A stretch of DNA of 64,000 nucleotides, taken from the NCBI GenBank assembly GCA_029862185.1, contig JAOTXX010000011.1:1-64000 (forward strand), given 5' to 3'. How positions within the stretch are numbered: position 1 is the first letter of the stretch; each line of letters begins with the position of its first letter. The notes under the pieces were generated by a model. The model had not been told where the DNA came from. It made no database searches and was given only the letters and a program-made list of their open reading frames with translations. A program made the position numbers and the translations under genes. This document shows, in pieces, positions 7,678 through 12,006 of this stretch. This DNA comes from Myxococcales bacterium (GTDB lineage: Bacteria > Myxococcota_A > Polyangia > Polyangiales > Houyiibacteriaceae).

Positions 7678-8361
7678 TCAAGCGGACTTTGCGTACTGGG
7701 CTTTGGTTCGCTCCAGGAGCTCCGTCAGGTCTTCGCGGAGCGCTTCGAGCGTCTCGAGGGTCGTGCGGACCATTGGGCGGCGGAGGCCGTCGATCTCTTC
7801 GAGCATCCGTTCGAGCCGCCTGGCCGCCGCGGTCGCGCGCCGGATCGCGTCCATTTGTTCGGCGCCTTCCGGCTTCGGATTGAATGCGGGGTTGAATCGT
7901 TTCCGAAGCTCGGTCACGGGCGCGCCTTCCTCGAAGACGGCCTCCCTGAGCTGGTCGACGAGCTCCTGAGGCACGGCGCGTTCGCCCGGTGCGTCGTTGC
8001 TTGGATTCCTCTGAAGTGCTCGTGCGAAGTAGTCGACCGCGTCGCATGTCGGGATGCGTTCGTTGAGCCCGTCGCGTTTCAAGACGGACGGCGCGTGCCG
8101 CTTGAGCGCGACATAGGAGCCGGTGAGCTTGTCGGCGGTCGCCTGCTTGAGCTGAAGCTCTAGCGAGCAGTAAGAGTAAAAGTCCTCGTAGCCCCAGTTG
8201 AGGTACGATTCCCGATTCCGGACCTCCACCAGCGCCTCCGCCATCATCACCCACGAGCGCTTGAACTCGCGCGCACGGCGAACGACGTGAACCCGGAGCT
8301 CATCCGCCCCCTCTGCTTCGAGCGCCTCTGCGAGGTCGCCGAGCCTTTGATGCGTAGCCAT
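7678..8361 (-). CDS. Uncharacterised helical protein
   Basis: A 227-residue protein that I do not recognise. It is predicted almost fully helical and charged. The N-terminal half has an EFKRSWVMMAEALVEVR stretch and an aromatic NWGYEDFYSYC segment. The C-terminal half (RRATAAARRLERMLEEIDGL, then TLETLEALREDLTELLERTKAQ) looks coiled-coil. There is no signal peptide, membrane span or catalytic motif. ATG 8361 is preferred over an upstream start at 8391, which lies in the divergent intergenic region. The gene is co-directional with the DUF35/thiolase pair (15 bp gap) and divergent from the nucleotidyltransferase gene at 8420, so the 58 bp between them must hold both promoters. Confidence 0.7.
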   Translation of the reverse strand: MATHQRLGDLAEALEAEGADELRVHVVRRAREFKRSWVMMAEALVEVRNRESYLNWGYEDFYSYCSLELQLKQATADKLTGSYVALKRHAPSVLKRDGLNERIPTCDAVDYFARALQRNPSNDAPGERAVPQELVDQLREAVFEEGAPVTELRKRFNPAFNPKPEGAEQMDAIRRATAAARRLERMLEEIDGLRRPMVRTTLETLEALREDLTELLERTKAQYAKSA

Positions 8362-8419
8362 CGGCGCTCTATACCACCGAAGCGGTTTCATTTATACCGG
8401 GCAAGGGAAGATCGAAGAA

Positions 8420-9253
8420 GTGGCGCAAACCACAGTGAATCGAAACGCCGCACGGCGCCGCGCAGCGACGTCGCTTGGGGCCGATGCACTCGTCGCCGAC
8501 GTTGCGGGCAAGCTCGCACGCTCGGGTATTTCGGTGATGCCCGTCAAGGGCGCGCTGCTCCAGCACTGGCTCTACGACGATCCGACGGAGCGGCCATTGA
8601 CCGACGTCGACCTGCTCGTGCTCTCAGCGGATCTGGAAGAGGCGGTAAAGCAGCTCGAGTCTGCAGGCTATCGCTCGCTGGCGCGTCCCAGTTTCGGCCC
8701 GGTCGTCCTGCAAACCCCGTTCGGCCTGGCGCTCGACCTTCACCCTTCGCTTTTCGACGCTGCTCGTTATCGACTGCGCACCGAGGATCTCTTCGCACGG
8801 AGCACCGAGGACACCCGGATCTATGCGGTTTGCGTCCAACTTCCCTCACCGCTCGACGTCTACGCACACCTCATTGGCAAATTTGGTAGCGACCATCTCG
8901 ATGGCCGGGCGACCGGCCCTCTCGACGAGATCGCCCGAATGGCAAGCCGGATCAATGCGCCACCGGAAACTGTCGCGCAGCACCTCGTGCTCTGTGGGAT
9001 GCGGCGTGTCTCGCGGTATGTGCTGCCCTTGGTTCACCAGACGATGAACGAGCCGTTTGCGGGGCAGGTCCACAGCTGGCTCCCGTTCGACCCGATCGGT
9101 AGATGCATTGCGGCGTTTGCATCCTCGAGCTTGCAGGACGCACCTGCGGGCTCGCGCAGCGGCGCTCTGGTCGCGCACTTGCTGAATGACTCCCTCCCAC
9201 GGGCGGCTCGCTCGGGCGCTCGGGCGCTTCTTCAGAAGATTCGACCGCGCTGA
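8420..9253 (+). CDS. Nucleotidyltransferase family protein (NTP_transf_5 type)
   Basis: A 277-residue protein of the uncharacterised nucleotidyltransferase family related to PF14907. The signature is visible: PVKGALLQHWLYDD at about residues 41-54, then PLTDVDLLV with the metal-binding pair Asp62 and Asp64. Such proteins occur in peptide-modification clusters beside HprK-like kinases. In at least one lasso-peptide system the homologue decorates the phosphate placed by the kinase. Here it converges on the precursor peptide gene (stops 16 bp apart) and is the only plus-strand member of the cluster. Transfer of a nucleotide or sugar-phosphate onto the modified peptide is an inference. Confidence 0.83.
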   Translation: MAQTTVNRNAARRRAATSLGADALVADVAGKLARSGISVMPVKGALLQHWLYDDPTERPLTDVDLLVLSADLEEAVKQLESAGYRSLARPSFGPVVLQTPFGLALDLHPSLFDAARYRLRTEDLFARSTEDTRIYAVCVQLPSPLDVYAHLIGKFGSDHLDGRATGPLDEIARMASRINAPPETVAQHLVLCGMRRVSRYVLPLVHQTMNEPFAGQVHSWLPFDPIGRCIAAFASSSLQDAPAGSRSGALVAHLLNDSLPRAARSGARALLQKIRPR

Positions 9254-9256
9254 CGC

Positions 9257-9285
9257 CCCGATTCGTCGCTCAGGACGAAATCGGG
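9257..9285. terminator. Hairpin between convergent nucleotidyltransferase and precursor genes
   Basis: CCCGATTCGTC (9257-9267) pairs with GACGAAATCGGG (9274-9285), an 11-bp stem with one bulged A and a 6-base loop. The hairpin is shared by both convergent transcripts. The precursor stop codon (complement of 9270-9272) lies in the loop and its last Ser codons are in the stem. No long T-run follows on either strand, so the terminator call rests on position and stem strength. Confidence 0.5.
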
Positions 9286-9437
9286 CCGATCGGACATGCG
9301 CCAGGGTTGCCTTTGGCGCCCGCCGTCGTGCAGGCGACAGCCACGGCTTCCAAGGGCTCGCGGTACACGATCCGCGGCGGCTCATACGGCTCCCGCTTGG
9401 ACCCTTCGCCTGAGCTACTGGTGTTCTTCCGTTCCAC
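9270..9437 (-). CDS. Candidate precursor peptide of a radical SAM RiPP cluster (55 aa)
   Basis: A small gene below usual calling thresholds. It starts at GTG 9437 with a good Shine-Dalgarno (GAGGGG, five bases upstream) and ends at TGA 9270-9272. It lies 14 bp downstream of the radical SAM stop on the same strand. The product has a polar N-terminus (MERKNTSSSGEGSKRE), a compact leader-like block PYEPPRIVYREPLEAVAVA (residues 17-35), and a short Gly/Pro/Cys-rich tail with Cys36 and Cys48 that ends PIGPISS. This architecture is what a RiPP precursor next to PqqD and a SPASM enzyme should look like. The terminal Ser54-Ser55 is a plausible phosphorylation site for the adjacent HprK-like kinase, because HprK-like kinases of lasso-peptide clusters modify the C-terminal Ser. 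Homology was not tested. Confidence 0.8.
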   Translation of the reverse strand: MERKNTSSSGEGSKREPYEPPRIVYREPLEAVAVACTTAGAKGNPGACPIGPISS

Positions 9438-9451
9438 GTTTCCCCTCGTCG

Positions 9452-10516
9452 CTACAATACAGCAAGTCGGACCCGCGCGCGAGCCGACGCGGCGATCCTC
9501 TGCTCGACCGCCGGGTAGAGCGCAAGAGGGTCACCCGAGTAGACCTGGGCTGCACCCGGGCAGAAATTCGAGCGTACCGCGGCGTCGCCAAGACCTTCGA
9601 GCATGCGCCGCGCCGCTTTGGTCGTTTCCCGAACATCCTGTAGCCCCACGGATTTTTCCCAGATCTCGGCAATTCGCTGATCGTGCAGGTTGCCGACGGG
9701 AACGCGCCACTGCACGCAGGGCAGCACGTTTCCATACGGATCGATCGCAATGTTGTTGGATCCTGCGCCACAGTGTTTGTCGGTCCGTGCGACGCGCGGC
9801 TCCCGCCCCGCTTCACGCGATGCGGTATCGATGTCTGGGTCGTCTCTGTTCGCGCGCGCTTCGAGTGCGCGACGGTAGCGAGCTTGGCCTTCTACGCTTG
9901 CTTCAATAGCCAATGGCTCCCGATCGCCATCGTCTCTCGGCTTCACTTCGGGGTCGATCTGAAACAGGACACCGAGTTCATCGTAGAGCGCGAGCATCCC
10001 CTCGACCTCGTCCTCGTTCCACCGAGTCAGGACGCTGTTGGCTTTCACGCGGAGCCCAAGCGACTTCATCGTTCGAACGTTGTCGATCAGACGCTCGAAG
10101 CTTCCGGCCACGCGGGTCTGCCGATCGTGCGTTTCTGCACTGGCACCGTGGATGCTGACTTCGATGACGAACGGGTCGACTTCGTTCCGAATTCTCTCGG
10201 CCGTCGCGGGTCTGACGGCATGGCCGTTGGTCTTGAGCCGGATGACGAACCCGAGGCTACGAGCATGGTTCGCGATATCAAAAAAGCGGGGGTGAGCTAG
10301 CGGCTCCCCACCGCTCAACGAGAGGTTGAGGATCCCGAGCTCGGCCAGGTCGTCCAGGAGCTGCCGGTATTGCTCGAGAGAGAGCTGCTGTCCGTCGCGT
10401 GCGAGATCGTTGTAGCAAAATGTGCAGTCGAGGTTGCAGGCGTAGGTGAGCTCCAAGAGCACCGACATCAGTCGGTTTCCGGCCCACGCGCGCTTGATTG
10501 TATTCGAGTAACTCAT
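9452..10516 (-). CDS. Radical SAM/SPASM peptide-modifying enzyme
   Basis: A 354-residue radical SAM enzyme. The [4Fe-4S]-SAM motif CxxxCxxC is at Cys27, Cys31 and Cys34 (ACNLDCTFCYN), with the GGEPL motif near residue 70. The C-terminal region contains the SPASM/Twitch-type cysteines: KHCGAG, then VLPCVQWRVPVGNL and SNFCPGAAQ. This resembles PqqE/AlbA-type enzymes that act on a peptide delivered by a PqqD domain. The start overlaps the PqqD-like stop by 4 bp (ATGA). Immediately downstream is the candidate precursor. The reaction could be a thioether bond to Cys36 or Cys48, epimerisation or a C-C crosslink. The sequence does not decide. Confidence 0.93.
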   Translation of the reverse strand: MSYSNTIKRAWAGNRLMSVLLELTYACNLDCTFCYNDLARDGQQLSLEQYRQLLDDLAELGILNLSLSGGEPLAHPRFFDIANHARSLGFVIRLKTNGHAVRPATAERIRNEVDPFVIEVSIHGASAETHDRQTRVAGSFERLIDNVRTMKSLGLRVKANSVLTRWNEDEVEGMLALYDELGVLFQIDPEVKPRDDGDREPLAIEASVEGQARYRRALEARANRDDPDIDTASREAGREPRVARTDKHCGAGSNNIAIDPYGNVLPCVQWRVPVGNLHDQRIAEIWEKSVGLQDVRETTKAARRMLEGLGDAAVRSNFCPGAAQVYSGDPLALYPAVEQRIAASARARVRLAVL

Positions 10517-10794
10517 GTTTGGCTGATCGCGCCTGCCTCGAGAAGCGCGTCGAGAAGAGACCGTGCATCCGCCCGCGCGCGATCCTGGTCGACGGCGTAG
10601 CGATCGGTGATGGCCATGACGACCTCATCGACGCTGCGCTCGGCTTGCAATTGTTGGACGATGAAGGCGCCGACCTCGTTCACGACCAGGACCTCGCCGG
10701 CCTCTTGCAGAACAAAGATCCCTTCGTCGTCCATCACGCGAAACCTCGCGTGCGGATCAACGCGATACCGCTGTTGCTGGCTCTGGGTACTCAT
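10513..10794 (-). CDS. PqqD-like peptide chaperone
   Basis: A 93-residue PqqD-family RiPP recognition element that would bind the leader of the precursor and present it to the radical SAM enzyme. It has the typical pattern of a short strand-rich N-terminus (RFRVMDDEGIFVLQEAGEVLVVN), then a helix starting EVGAFIVQQL and a helical C-terminus (SVDEVVMAITDRY). Its ATG (10794) lies 38 bp inside the end of the upstream HprK-like gene, and its stop overlaps the radical SAM start. This is the tight packing of a single translationally coupled operon. Similar stand-alone PqqD proteins are known next to HprK-related kinases. Confidence 0.88.
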   Translation of the reverse strand: MSTQSQQQRYRVDPHARFRVMDDEGIFVLQEAGEVLVVNEVGAFIVQQLQAERSVDEVVMAITDRYAVDQDRARADARSLLDALLEAGAISQT

Positions 10795-11623
10795 TGTCCA
10801 ATACGCTCCAAAAACGGGTATCCTTTGCGAAGGTGAGAACGCGAAGCGGTAGGCACTCCACGAGCTCCTCGGCGCGCGAAGTCAGCCTGTCGACGAGCCA
10901 AGGGTCGGCATTCACATACGGACACGAGGCGACGATACGCGACACCGCTTCGGCTTTCGAGCAGAGGCTCACCGACGGCGCGCTGCCCTGGCTGAGGCCG
11001 AGCAGGCCGGTAACTGGGTAGGGTGGGTGCCGCCGGGGCGCCCCGCCAAATTCGCCCGCAAACGGCATGGCCAGAAGCTCGAACGAACCGCCTGCTGGCC
11101 GAATCGCATTCAGCTCGTCGCTCAAAATCTCGAGCTCCAGCTCGTCGGCCAGGCCGCAGATGGTGGTCTTGCCTGCTCCGGAGCGCCCACAGAAGAGGAA
11201 CCCCCGAGCTCCGTCGTTGAACGCCGCGCTGTGCATGACCAGCGCTCCCTCGCCGAAGAGTCGATAGCAGGCCACGATTCGGAAGACGTTCTCGAAGGCC
11301 GCGGAGAACCATTCGTCGCTCTGGCACGTCTGCATTTGTACACGAAACGGGTTGCGGTCGACGTTGGCGGTGAAGCCGATGCCCGCGACGGCGATGCTTT
11401 CGTCGCCATGCACCACTGCAACCGGATACTCGACTGCCCCGAGCGGCCTCCGCATGAATGCAGCTGAATTGGGGTTGAAGTGGATGTCGATTCGAACATC
11501 CGGCTTCGCCTCGTCTCTGCGCAGCAAGGGCTGAAATCGCGAACGTACGAGGCCATCCTGCTCTGGGTTCAGGCCGGCGAAGCGATAGCGGGACCCGGCG
11601 AACTCGATGCTCAGTGCGCTCAT
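10757..11623 (-). CDS. HprK-related kinase
   Basis: A 288-residue protein related to the C-terminal kinase domain of HPr kinase/phosphorylase. The Walker A loop GRSGAGKTT is at about residues 146-154, preceded by ALVMHSAAF, and followed by ILSDELNAI, which matches the SDE-type metal-binding segment of HprK-like proteins. It has an unrelated roughly 130-residue N-terminal domain instead of the HPr kinase N-domain, and no PTS gene is nearby. It is coupled by a 4-bp overlap to the S24/S26-like gene upstream and overlaps the PqqD gene downstream. The likely role is phosphorylation of the cluster peptide rather than of HPr. This is an inference from lasso-peptide kinases of the same superfamily. 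Confidence 0.87.
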   Translation of the reverse strand: MSALSIEFAGSRYRFAGLNPEQDGLVRSRFQPLLRRDEAKPDVRIDIHFNPNSAAFMRRPLGAVEYPVAVVHGDESIAVAGIGFTANVDRNPFRVQMQTCQSDEWFSAAFENVFRIVACYRLFGEGALVMHSAAFNDGARGFLFCGRSGAGKTTICGLADELELEILSDELNAIRPAGGSFELLAMPFAGEFGGAPRRHPPYPVTGLLGLSQGSAPSVSLCSKAEAVSRIVASCPYVNADPWLVDRLTSRAEELVECLPLRVLTFAKDTRFWSVLDNEYPEPATAVSR

Positions 11624-12006
11624 CGGCCGACCCCAGCCACTCGGAGAATCATGGCGCGAGCATACTTGCCGAGCGCTGACAGCCGATCTGAGGCCCGGAC
11701 CTCGCAGGTTGCCCGTCCGACGATGGCGCTTGCGAGGGCCGCAGGGTCCCGCTTGGCAGCGTCGTCAGACTGGGTGAGTGCCACCAGGCCGTGAACGCTC
11801 GGTGCGTAGCCCAAGAATCGATGCGCGTTCCAGTCGTCGCGGCGCCGCACCACGATCACGTCACCGGGCAGGTAGAGCCGCTGCCTGCGCACCTGCACAG
11901 ACTGGCCATCGCTGATCGATCGCATGCACTCGCCGCGAATCGAGAACTTCACCGATTCTCCATGGCCCAGGCCAAGGCTCGCCAAGCTCGATTGTCCCCC
12001 TTGCAT
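11620..12006 (-). CDS. S24/S26-like peptidase with Cys in place of the catalytic Ser
   Basis: A 128-residue protein with the small beta fold of S24/S26 peptidases. The nucleophile motif GxSMxPxI reads GECMRSI, putting Cys27 at the Ser position. DGQSVQVRR and LPGDVIVVRR follow as in LexA and signal peptidase. Where a Lys-Arg pair (LexA type) or His-Arg pair (SipW/Sec11 type) normally supplies the base, the sequence is AHRFLGY with His62. It may therefore be a Cys-His protease that removes the leader, or a non-proteolytic relative. There is no signal peptide or TM segment. It is the first gene of the minus-strand operon, starting ATG 12006 and overlapping the kinase start by 4 bp. Confidence 0.72.
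   Translation of the reverse strand: MQGGQSSLASLGLGHGESVKFSIRGECMRSISDGQSVQVRRQRLYLPGDVIVVRRRDDWNAHRFLGYAPSVHGLVALTQSDDAAKRDPAALASAIVGRATCEVRASDRLSALGKYARAMILRVAGVGR

Follow-up and report, generated by a model that had tools for sequence, protein, structure and literature searches.

A radical SAM-containing, putative peptide-modification locus from a Myxococcales bacterium and its association with PorU-like C25 proteins in three phyla

Gene content of the locus

Here we describe a six-gene locus at positions 8420–12006 of a 64,000-nt stretch of contig JAOTXX010000011.1 (assembly GCA_029862185.1) from a Myxococcales bacterium; this whole stretch is referred to as the window, and gene coordinates are relative to it. 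The locus had been proposed from the DNA letters alone to encode a ribosomally synthesized and post-translationally modified peptide (RiPP) together with the enzymes that modify it, and the positions, overlaps and peptide gap given for all six open reading frames (ORFs) in that original prediction agree with our own gene calls. The features are as follows.

8420..9253, plus strand: NTP_transf_5 nucleotidyltransferase-like protein, accessory, 277 aa (PF14907, 1.8e-21; the sole PF14907 match genome-wide)
9270..9437, minus strand: precursor peptide, 55 aa, GTG start (relatives adjoin the same enzymes in three phyla)
9273..9275, minus strand: Ser55 codon, proposed phosphorylation site (from conservation of a C-terminal Ser)
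9452..10516, minus strand: radical S-adenosylmethionine (SAM) enzyme, 354 aa, with a partial SPASM/twitch-like C-terminal region (Pfam Radical_SAM 4e-25, SPASM 1.8e-9)
10513..10794, minus strand: PqqD-family discrete RiPP recognition element (RRE), 93 aa (PF05402, 2.8e-14)
10757..11623, minus strand: HprK-like kinase with a PEPCK/HprK fold, 288 aa (family profiles, predicted fold)
11620..12006, minus strand: archaeal/endoplasmic reticulum (ER)-type signal-peptidase-like protein, soluble, putative leader peptidase, 128 aa (family profiles, predicted fold)

The enzyme genes overlap by 4, 38 and 4 bp, with one of the 4-bp overlaps lying between the radical SAM and PqqD genes, and the stop codon of the radical SAM gene is followed after 14 bp by the start of the peptide gene, on which the nucleotidyltransferase gene converges with 16 bp between them. 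The kinase and the S24/S26-like gene (the signal-peptidase-like protein) were marginal with single-sequence family models, and their assignments are backed by family profiles and predicted folds. A PQQ (pyrroloquinoline quinone) or mycofactocin-type cofactor pathway was considered and rejected, no curated model scoring above its own cut-off.

A cassette conserved across three phyla

The radical SAM gene occurs in 12 of the 58 relatives, and all 12 of these also carry the peptide. Scanning the collection with an alignment of the radical SAM enzyme yielded 75 loci, 61 of which (L057–L117) constitute the family treated here; they come from Myxococcota, Acidobacteriota (many of them Thermoanaerobaculia) and Gammaproteobacteria (Sedimenticola, Competibacter, Contendobacter, Thiocapsa marina), along with one record labelled Betaproteobacteria. 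By profile search, most of the 61 loci have HprK, PqqD and peptide genes next to the radical SAM gene, and 33–34 have the S24-like gene there; the presence of the radical SAM gene itself counts for nothing because the loci were picked through it. Gene order and strand vary among relatives and include inversions (e.g. L071, L087, L098, L108, L117); that the cassette is kept despite these changes favours a functional unit over a mere absence of rearrangement. The unit is real and not a chance arrangement, and the joint occurrence of PqqD, radical SAM enzyme, kinase and peptide in most relatives, with no cluster-bearing relative among the 12 lacking the small peptide, supports its earlier description as a RiPP-type unit. 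An O-antigen-ligase-like family adjoins seven of the relatives.

The peptide ORF matches no family model in curated or Pfam scans. Between the window and its closest congener, substitutions number 4, 2 and 17 at codon positions 1, 2 and 3 (15 synonymous and 5 non-synonymous codons), and this third-position bias, together with relatives that sit beside the same enzymes in three phyla, marks the peptide as a conserved coding gene. Its predicted leader (residues 1–33; 9437–9339) contains Y18-x-x-P21, E30 and A33, and its predicted core (residues 34–55; 9338–9273), VACTTAGAKGNPGACPIGPISS, contains C36, K42, C48 and S55. Across the family we compared 60 peptides, which reduce to 37 non-redundant sequences. 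All 37 have exactly two Cys in their last 40 residues with at least one Lys between them. The last residue is Ser in 56 of the 60 (36 of the 37) and Thr in the rest, preceded by residues that vary. Spacing is identical in 56 of 60 peptides, running from [YW]xxP through eleven residues to [AS] and then two residues to Cys; in these 56 aligned peptides the residue preceding the proposed cut is Ala (52) or Ser (4), and Glu stands at −4 from the cut in every one. Four peptides outside the profile (L138, L139, L140 and L142, in genomes found through the C25 gene discussed below) fit the same rules and end in Ser. The suggestion that a C-terminal Ser is phosphorylated therefore gains strong comparative support from the 36 of 37 non-redundant peptides, and on this conservation we consider the C-terminal serine probably phosphorylated. 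In a distant group of loci (L049–L055) from order-level relatives, a related peptide ends in ANT or TNS.

Comparison with described systems

The linear polyphosphorylated peptides (LPPs) have a core consisting of the signal peptidase I (SpI)-like LppS, the RRE LppB, the HprK-like LppK, the nucleoside triphosphate (NTP) transferase LppN and the MsbA-like LppD (Popov et al. 2026, PMC13381572). LppS (active site S29/H68/D93) and LppB remove the leader in an RRE-dependent manner, LppK polyphosphorylates core Ser3, and deletion of LppN causes no change in a heterologous host; the loci are situated in capsule regions, and LPPs are called Bacillota-restricted in that report, which leaves radical SAM enzymes unmentioned (PMC13381572). 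The present locus has in common with them a signal-peptidase-I-like putative leader peptidase, a discrete RRE, an HprK-like kinase, a nucleotidyltransferase, the lack of a macrolactam cyclase and, in some relatives, an MsbA-like transporter. The LPP motif YxxPxVLxHQxIxFET/xxS (the slash marks the cut) aligns without gaps with YxxPxIVxREPLEAVA/xxC here, at an equal Tyr-to-cut distance, and by this register with LppA (PMC13381572) the cut would fall after A33. HQ and FET are, however, replaced here, and core position 3 is Cys rather than Ser in 56 of 56 aligned peptides. The locus further differs from LPPs in its added radical SAM enzyme, its C25 partner and its occurrence in Gram-negative phyla, in a leader-peptidase nucleophile that is Cys in most members, in the two Cys and the Lys of the core, and in the conserved Ser at the C-terminus. 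As the locus lacks two LPP features, the core Ser3 motif and an in-cluster transporter, we file it as an LPP variant and not as a member; the best reading is of a RiPP pathway of the LPP kind to which a radical SAM step has been added.

The original prediction had drawn its comparison with lasso peptides, and the shared parts that it pointed to stand: an HprK-type kinase, a C-terminal Ser and a nucleotidyltransferase homologue, to which a [Y/W]xxP leader and a PqqD-like RRE can be added, are common to this locus and the phosphorylated lasso peptides paeninodin and pseudomycoidin (PMC9266682). The closest described system is nevertheless that of the LPPs. In contrast to the phosphorylated lasso peptides, the locus has a radical SAM enzyme, the genome has no B2 leader peptidase (0 PF13471 matches in the whole genome) and the cluster has no cyclase, and on the last two grounds a lasso peptide was ruled out; the predicted absence of a lasso cyclase holds for the six cluster genes, no genome-wide cyclase search having been made. 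With the PqqD-dependent radical SAM systems of PqqE, SkfB and CteB the locus shares a radical SAM domain and a PqqD-type partner, but here there are only three auxiliary Cys. Those systems are not known to include a kinase or a signal-peptidase-like leader peptidase. We found no literature joining HprK with PqqD, radical SAM enzymes and RiPPs, which is weak evidence as only open-access sources were searched.

Enzymes of the cluster

The CxxxCxxC motif of the radical SAM enzyme is formed by C27, C31 and C34, and only three further Cys are conserved C-terminally (C249, C267, C319). With just three auxiliary Cys, a partial SPASM or twitch-like auxiliary cluster is indicated, so that the protein predicted to be a SPASM radical SAM enzyme keeps its radical SAM identity and its Pfam SPASM match but not the full seven-Cys SPASM signature. 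Its closest PDB profile matches are PqqE (2.5e-22) and SkfB (2e-19), while the nearest curated models for the PqqD protein, below cut-off, include lasso PqqD chaperones. The distant radical SAM enzymes of L049–L055 have more SPASM Cys.

What had been called S24/S26-like is present as predicted, and its identity can be refined to a homologue of archaeal/ER-type signal peptidases: SEC11A and SEC11C are closest, with SEC11A the best PDB profile match (9e-7). Signal peptidases are also nearest to its predicted structure (pLDDT 80), with modest scores (SipA Z 8.0, SpsB 7.8) that agree with the sequence and motif evidence. The predicted active-site residues in the window protein are C27, H62, D81 and D87. 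Among 34 members, H62 and D81 are invariant (34/34) and the nucleophile position is Cys in 28, including the window protein, and Ser in 6; that only Cys or Ser occurs there suggests an active nucleophile. We take the protein to be the probable leader peptidase of the locus, corresponding to LppS but using Cys as its nucleophile.

The kinase model (pLDDT 94.5) has a PEPCK/HprK fold, superposing on PEPCK with Z 15.3 and a root-mean-square deviation (rmsd) of 3.8 over 241 residues and matching HprK (1knx) with a Foldseek E of 4.5e-4. H131, K152 and D169 are invariant in 54 of 54 family sequences, and position 170 is Asp in 40 and Glu in 14, the window protein having Glu. Lasso kinases that phosphorylate a C-terminal Ser have a His-Lys-Asp-Asp motif (review PMC9266682).

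Association with PorU-like C25 proteins

In many relatives the gene immediately 5' of the peptide gene, on the same strand, encodes a giant protein that carries a Peptidase_C25 domain at its C-terminal end. Matches to Peptidase_C25 run from 1e-44 to 1e-68 in the six giants scanned, well above the C25 cut-off. An automatic count, which missed several overlapping frames, placed a C25 gene within 600 bp upstream of at least 22 of 54 peptides, and three loci (L073, L080, L087) have two tandem C25–peptide pairs each with one enzyme set. Sedimenticola and Competibacter are examples of relatives with a bicistronic pair. The C25 proteins are large, multidomain and secreted, with recurrent His and Cys motifs in the ones inspected. 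Their best curated model is PorU (1e-48 to 7e-59), at 162–200 bits against an equivalog cut-off of 420. PorU has been implicated as the sortase of the type IX secretion system (T9SS), joining cargo C-termini to a linking sugar that carries Ser or Gly (PMC7468200). The C25 partners in relatives and the C25 proteins elsewhere in the window's genome match its protease domain, whereas they have other N-terminal domains, score far below the equivalog cut-off and are absent from the window.

Among the window's relatives the C25 genes are mostly unlinked to the cluster, and their co-occurrence is seen at the level of genomes. C25 is present in 11 of the 12 cluster-bearing relatives but in only 3 of the 46 without the cluster (Fisher 1.8e-8); for the genus alone the counts are 7 of 8 and 1 of 11 (p 0.0012). 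Of 49 further cluster-bearing genomes, 46 have C25. In Gammaproteobacteria the corresponding figures are 14/17 and 10/270 (5.6e-15), the background there not having been searched for cluster carriers without C25. As background, C25 was found in 15 of 275 sampled Gammaproteobacteria, where, leaving aside the centre genome, 4 of the other 14 turned out to bear the cluster, and in 13 of 149 genomes of an acidobacterial class, including both cluster-bearing genomes among the 149. The cluster and PorU-like C25 giants go together across three phyla; this partner lay outside the view of the original prediction.

The window's own genome encodes two C25 giants, both outside the window and unlinked to the cluster (G000:C100:6772-7800, L135 4240-8028; G000:C85:24336-25358, L136 8139-13406). 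RTX repeats occur in one of them and myxo-disulfide repeats in the other, and both end in MYXO-CTERM-like tails. A search for a second peptide gene beside them gave no convincing match (best E 0.042, in a frame antisense to the C25 gene), and the open-access literature yielded no report linking C25 with radical SAM enzymes, itself weak evidence given that scope. At L099 (294-12196), several secreted proteins lie in tandem around the cluster, the one scanned having a GEVED domain; they share an 'RWETLEERGTIGFYxERR'-like region, and a similar region occurs in the C25 proteins of the window's genome.

Proposed pathway and alternatives

From the observed gene content, conservation, folds, catalytic motifs and C25 linkage and co-occurrence we infer a pathway whose chemical steps, cut site and C25 role would be as follows. 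The PqqD protein would bind the YxxP leader and present the precursor to the radical SAM enzyme, which would modify the C-K-C core, a Cys-based thioether or carbon crosslink being our likeliest guess. The HprK-like kinase would phosphorylate Ser55, once or several times, and the signal-peptidase-like protein, using Cys27/His62 and an acidic residue, would cut after Ala33 to give a 22-residue core; the nucleotidyltransferase, where present, may attach a further group to that phosphate. Once mature, the peptide may act with the secreted PorU-like C25 protease as substrate, tag or regulator. As a whole, we think it fairly probable that an LPP-like peptide is made in this way and works with a C25 protease.

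Several points weigh against this pathway. The LPP phosphosite, core Ser3, corresponds to Cys36 here, and the C-terminal site is proposed from conservation and the lasso analogy; the match of the kinase to curated HprK_rel models (0.0014) is marginal and below cut-off; and a family-model scan finds no transporter among the window's six cluster genes, an MsbA-like exporter family being recognised beside only six relatives. A few cluster-bearing genomes, among them that of Thiocapsa marina, have no C25 match, C25 is also found in genomes without the cluster, and the co-occurrence tests treat genomes, many of them incomplete metagenome-assembled genomes (MAGs), as independent and ignore shared ancestry. 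In the distant group L049–L055, moreover, the giant neighbour is an FG-GAP/Ig-like protein and not C25. This rules out C25 as a universal partner and warns against seeing the peptide purely as a protease inhibitor; in its relation to C25, we weigh substrate or tag roles and regulator roles about equally.

A conventional secreted bacteriocin-like RiPP, which C25 would trim or activate outside the cell as a maturation protease, would fit the finding that roughly half of all peptide genes in the family are adjacent to, or bicistronic with, a C25 gene, including the tandem pairs of L073, L080 and L087, and cleavage could take place at the invariant Lys of the loop bounded by the two Cys. A large multidomain C25 protein, with a MYXO-CTERM-like tail in the window's genome, would however be odd for a dedicated trimmer, the core shows more conservation than bacteriocins usually do, and L049–L055 pair the peptide with a giant that has no recognised protease domain; we regard this account as possible but do not favour it. 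The modified phosphopeptide might also serve as a tag or linker, attached by a PorU-like transpeptidase to a protein or glycan at the cell surface. PorU as best curated match (below the equivalog cut-off), its implication in joining cargo C-termini to a Ser- or Gly-bearing linking sugar (PMC7468200), the O-antigen-ligase-like neighbours and the capsule-region setting of LPP loci speak for such a tag, but transpeptidation by these C25 proteins is suggested by family resemblance and the FG-GAP group has no C25, and we find the idea doubtful.

Two further alternatives concern the peptide itself. It could be a linear phosphopeptide exactly like the LPPs, with the radical SAM enzyme acting on another substrate, since leader, RRE, kinase and peptidase agree with LPPs in type and register; but the radical SAM gene overlaps the PqqD gene by 4 bp and lies 14 bp from a peptide gene that its relatives keep, and the invariant two Cys and Lys of the core are unlike LPPs, which makes this improbable. 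A reading of the short ORF as spurious, or as what is left of a decayed gene, might be argued from its 55 codons, its GTG start and its lack of a family model, yet is hardly credible against the third-position substitution bias and tight conservation across phyla.

Accessory and neighbouring genes

Although the nucleotidyltransferase belongs to the unit in the window, as predicted, it is not a core component: the NTP_transf_5 profile has 20 matches in just 18 of the 75 loci, several of them next to second HprK/PqqD sets, and a position next to the cluster is seen in L064, in L075 and in the congeners of the window, but only occasionally elsewhere. Two loci (L063 10446-13357; L065 10555-13115) have, a few kb away from the radical SAM cluster, a second set of PqqD, HprK_rel_A-like and NTP_transf_5-like genes, and the kinase of the L063 set matches TIGR04352 at 8.6e-17, below cut-off; these sets are possibly a radical-SAM-free sister pathway.

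Individual loci show other arrangements. In the acidobacterial L116 (1682-6998) one peptide lies amid three HprK-like and two radical SAM genes, in L047 (1424-6121) PrkA kinase and SpoVR genes adjoin the cluster, and in L055 a sulfotransferase-like gene is next to the set of peptide, radical SAM and FG-GAP giant genes. In the window itself, a 237-aa protein of unknown family (7678-8391, minus strand) is divergent from the nucleotidyltransferase with 28 bp between them; it is 76-97% identical in congeners, generally exceeding the conservation of the cluster genes, and is probably an unrelated neighbour.

Implications

A RiPP type reported this year as Bacillota-restricted now extends, as an LPP-like variant, to three Gram-negative phyla, with predicted radical SAM chemistry added. 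Four core residues of the peptide are invariant and lend themselves to functional tests, and a natural Ser-to-Cys switch in a leader peptidase of the signal-peptidase fold, if active as predicted, would be of interest in its own right. The recurrent PorU-like protease is a first lead on the function of such phosphopeptides, LPPs and paeninodins included. We suggest, tentatively and as a less likely outcome, that a peptide modified by a radical SAM enzyme, phosphorylated at its C-terminus and matured by a signal peptidase turned cysteine protease may serve a PorU-like C25 transpeptidase outside Bacteroidota as its dedicated partner, in the form of a covalent tag or a prosthetic element; if so, it would represent a novel type of system in which surface anchoring or protease control depends on a peptide.

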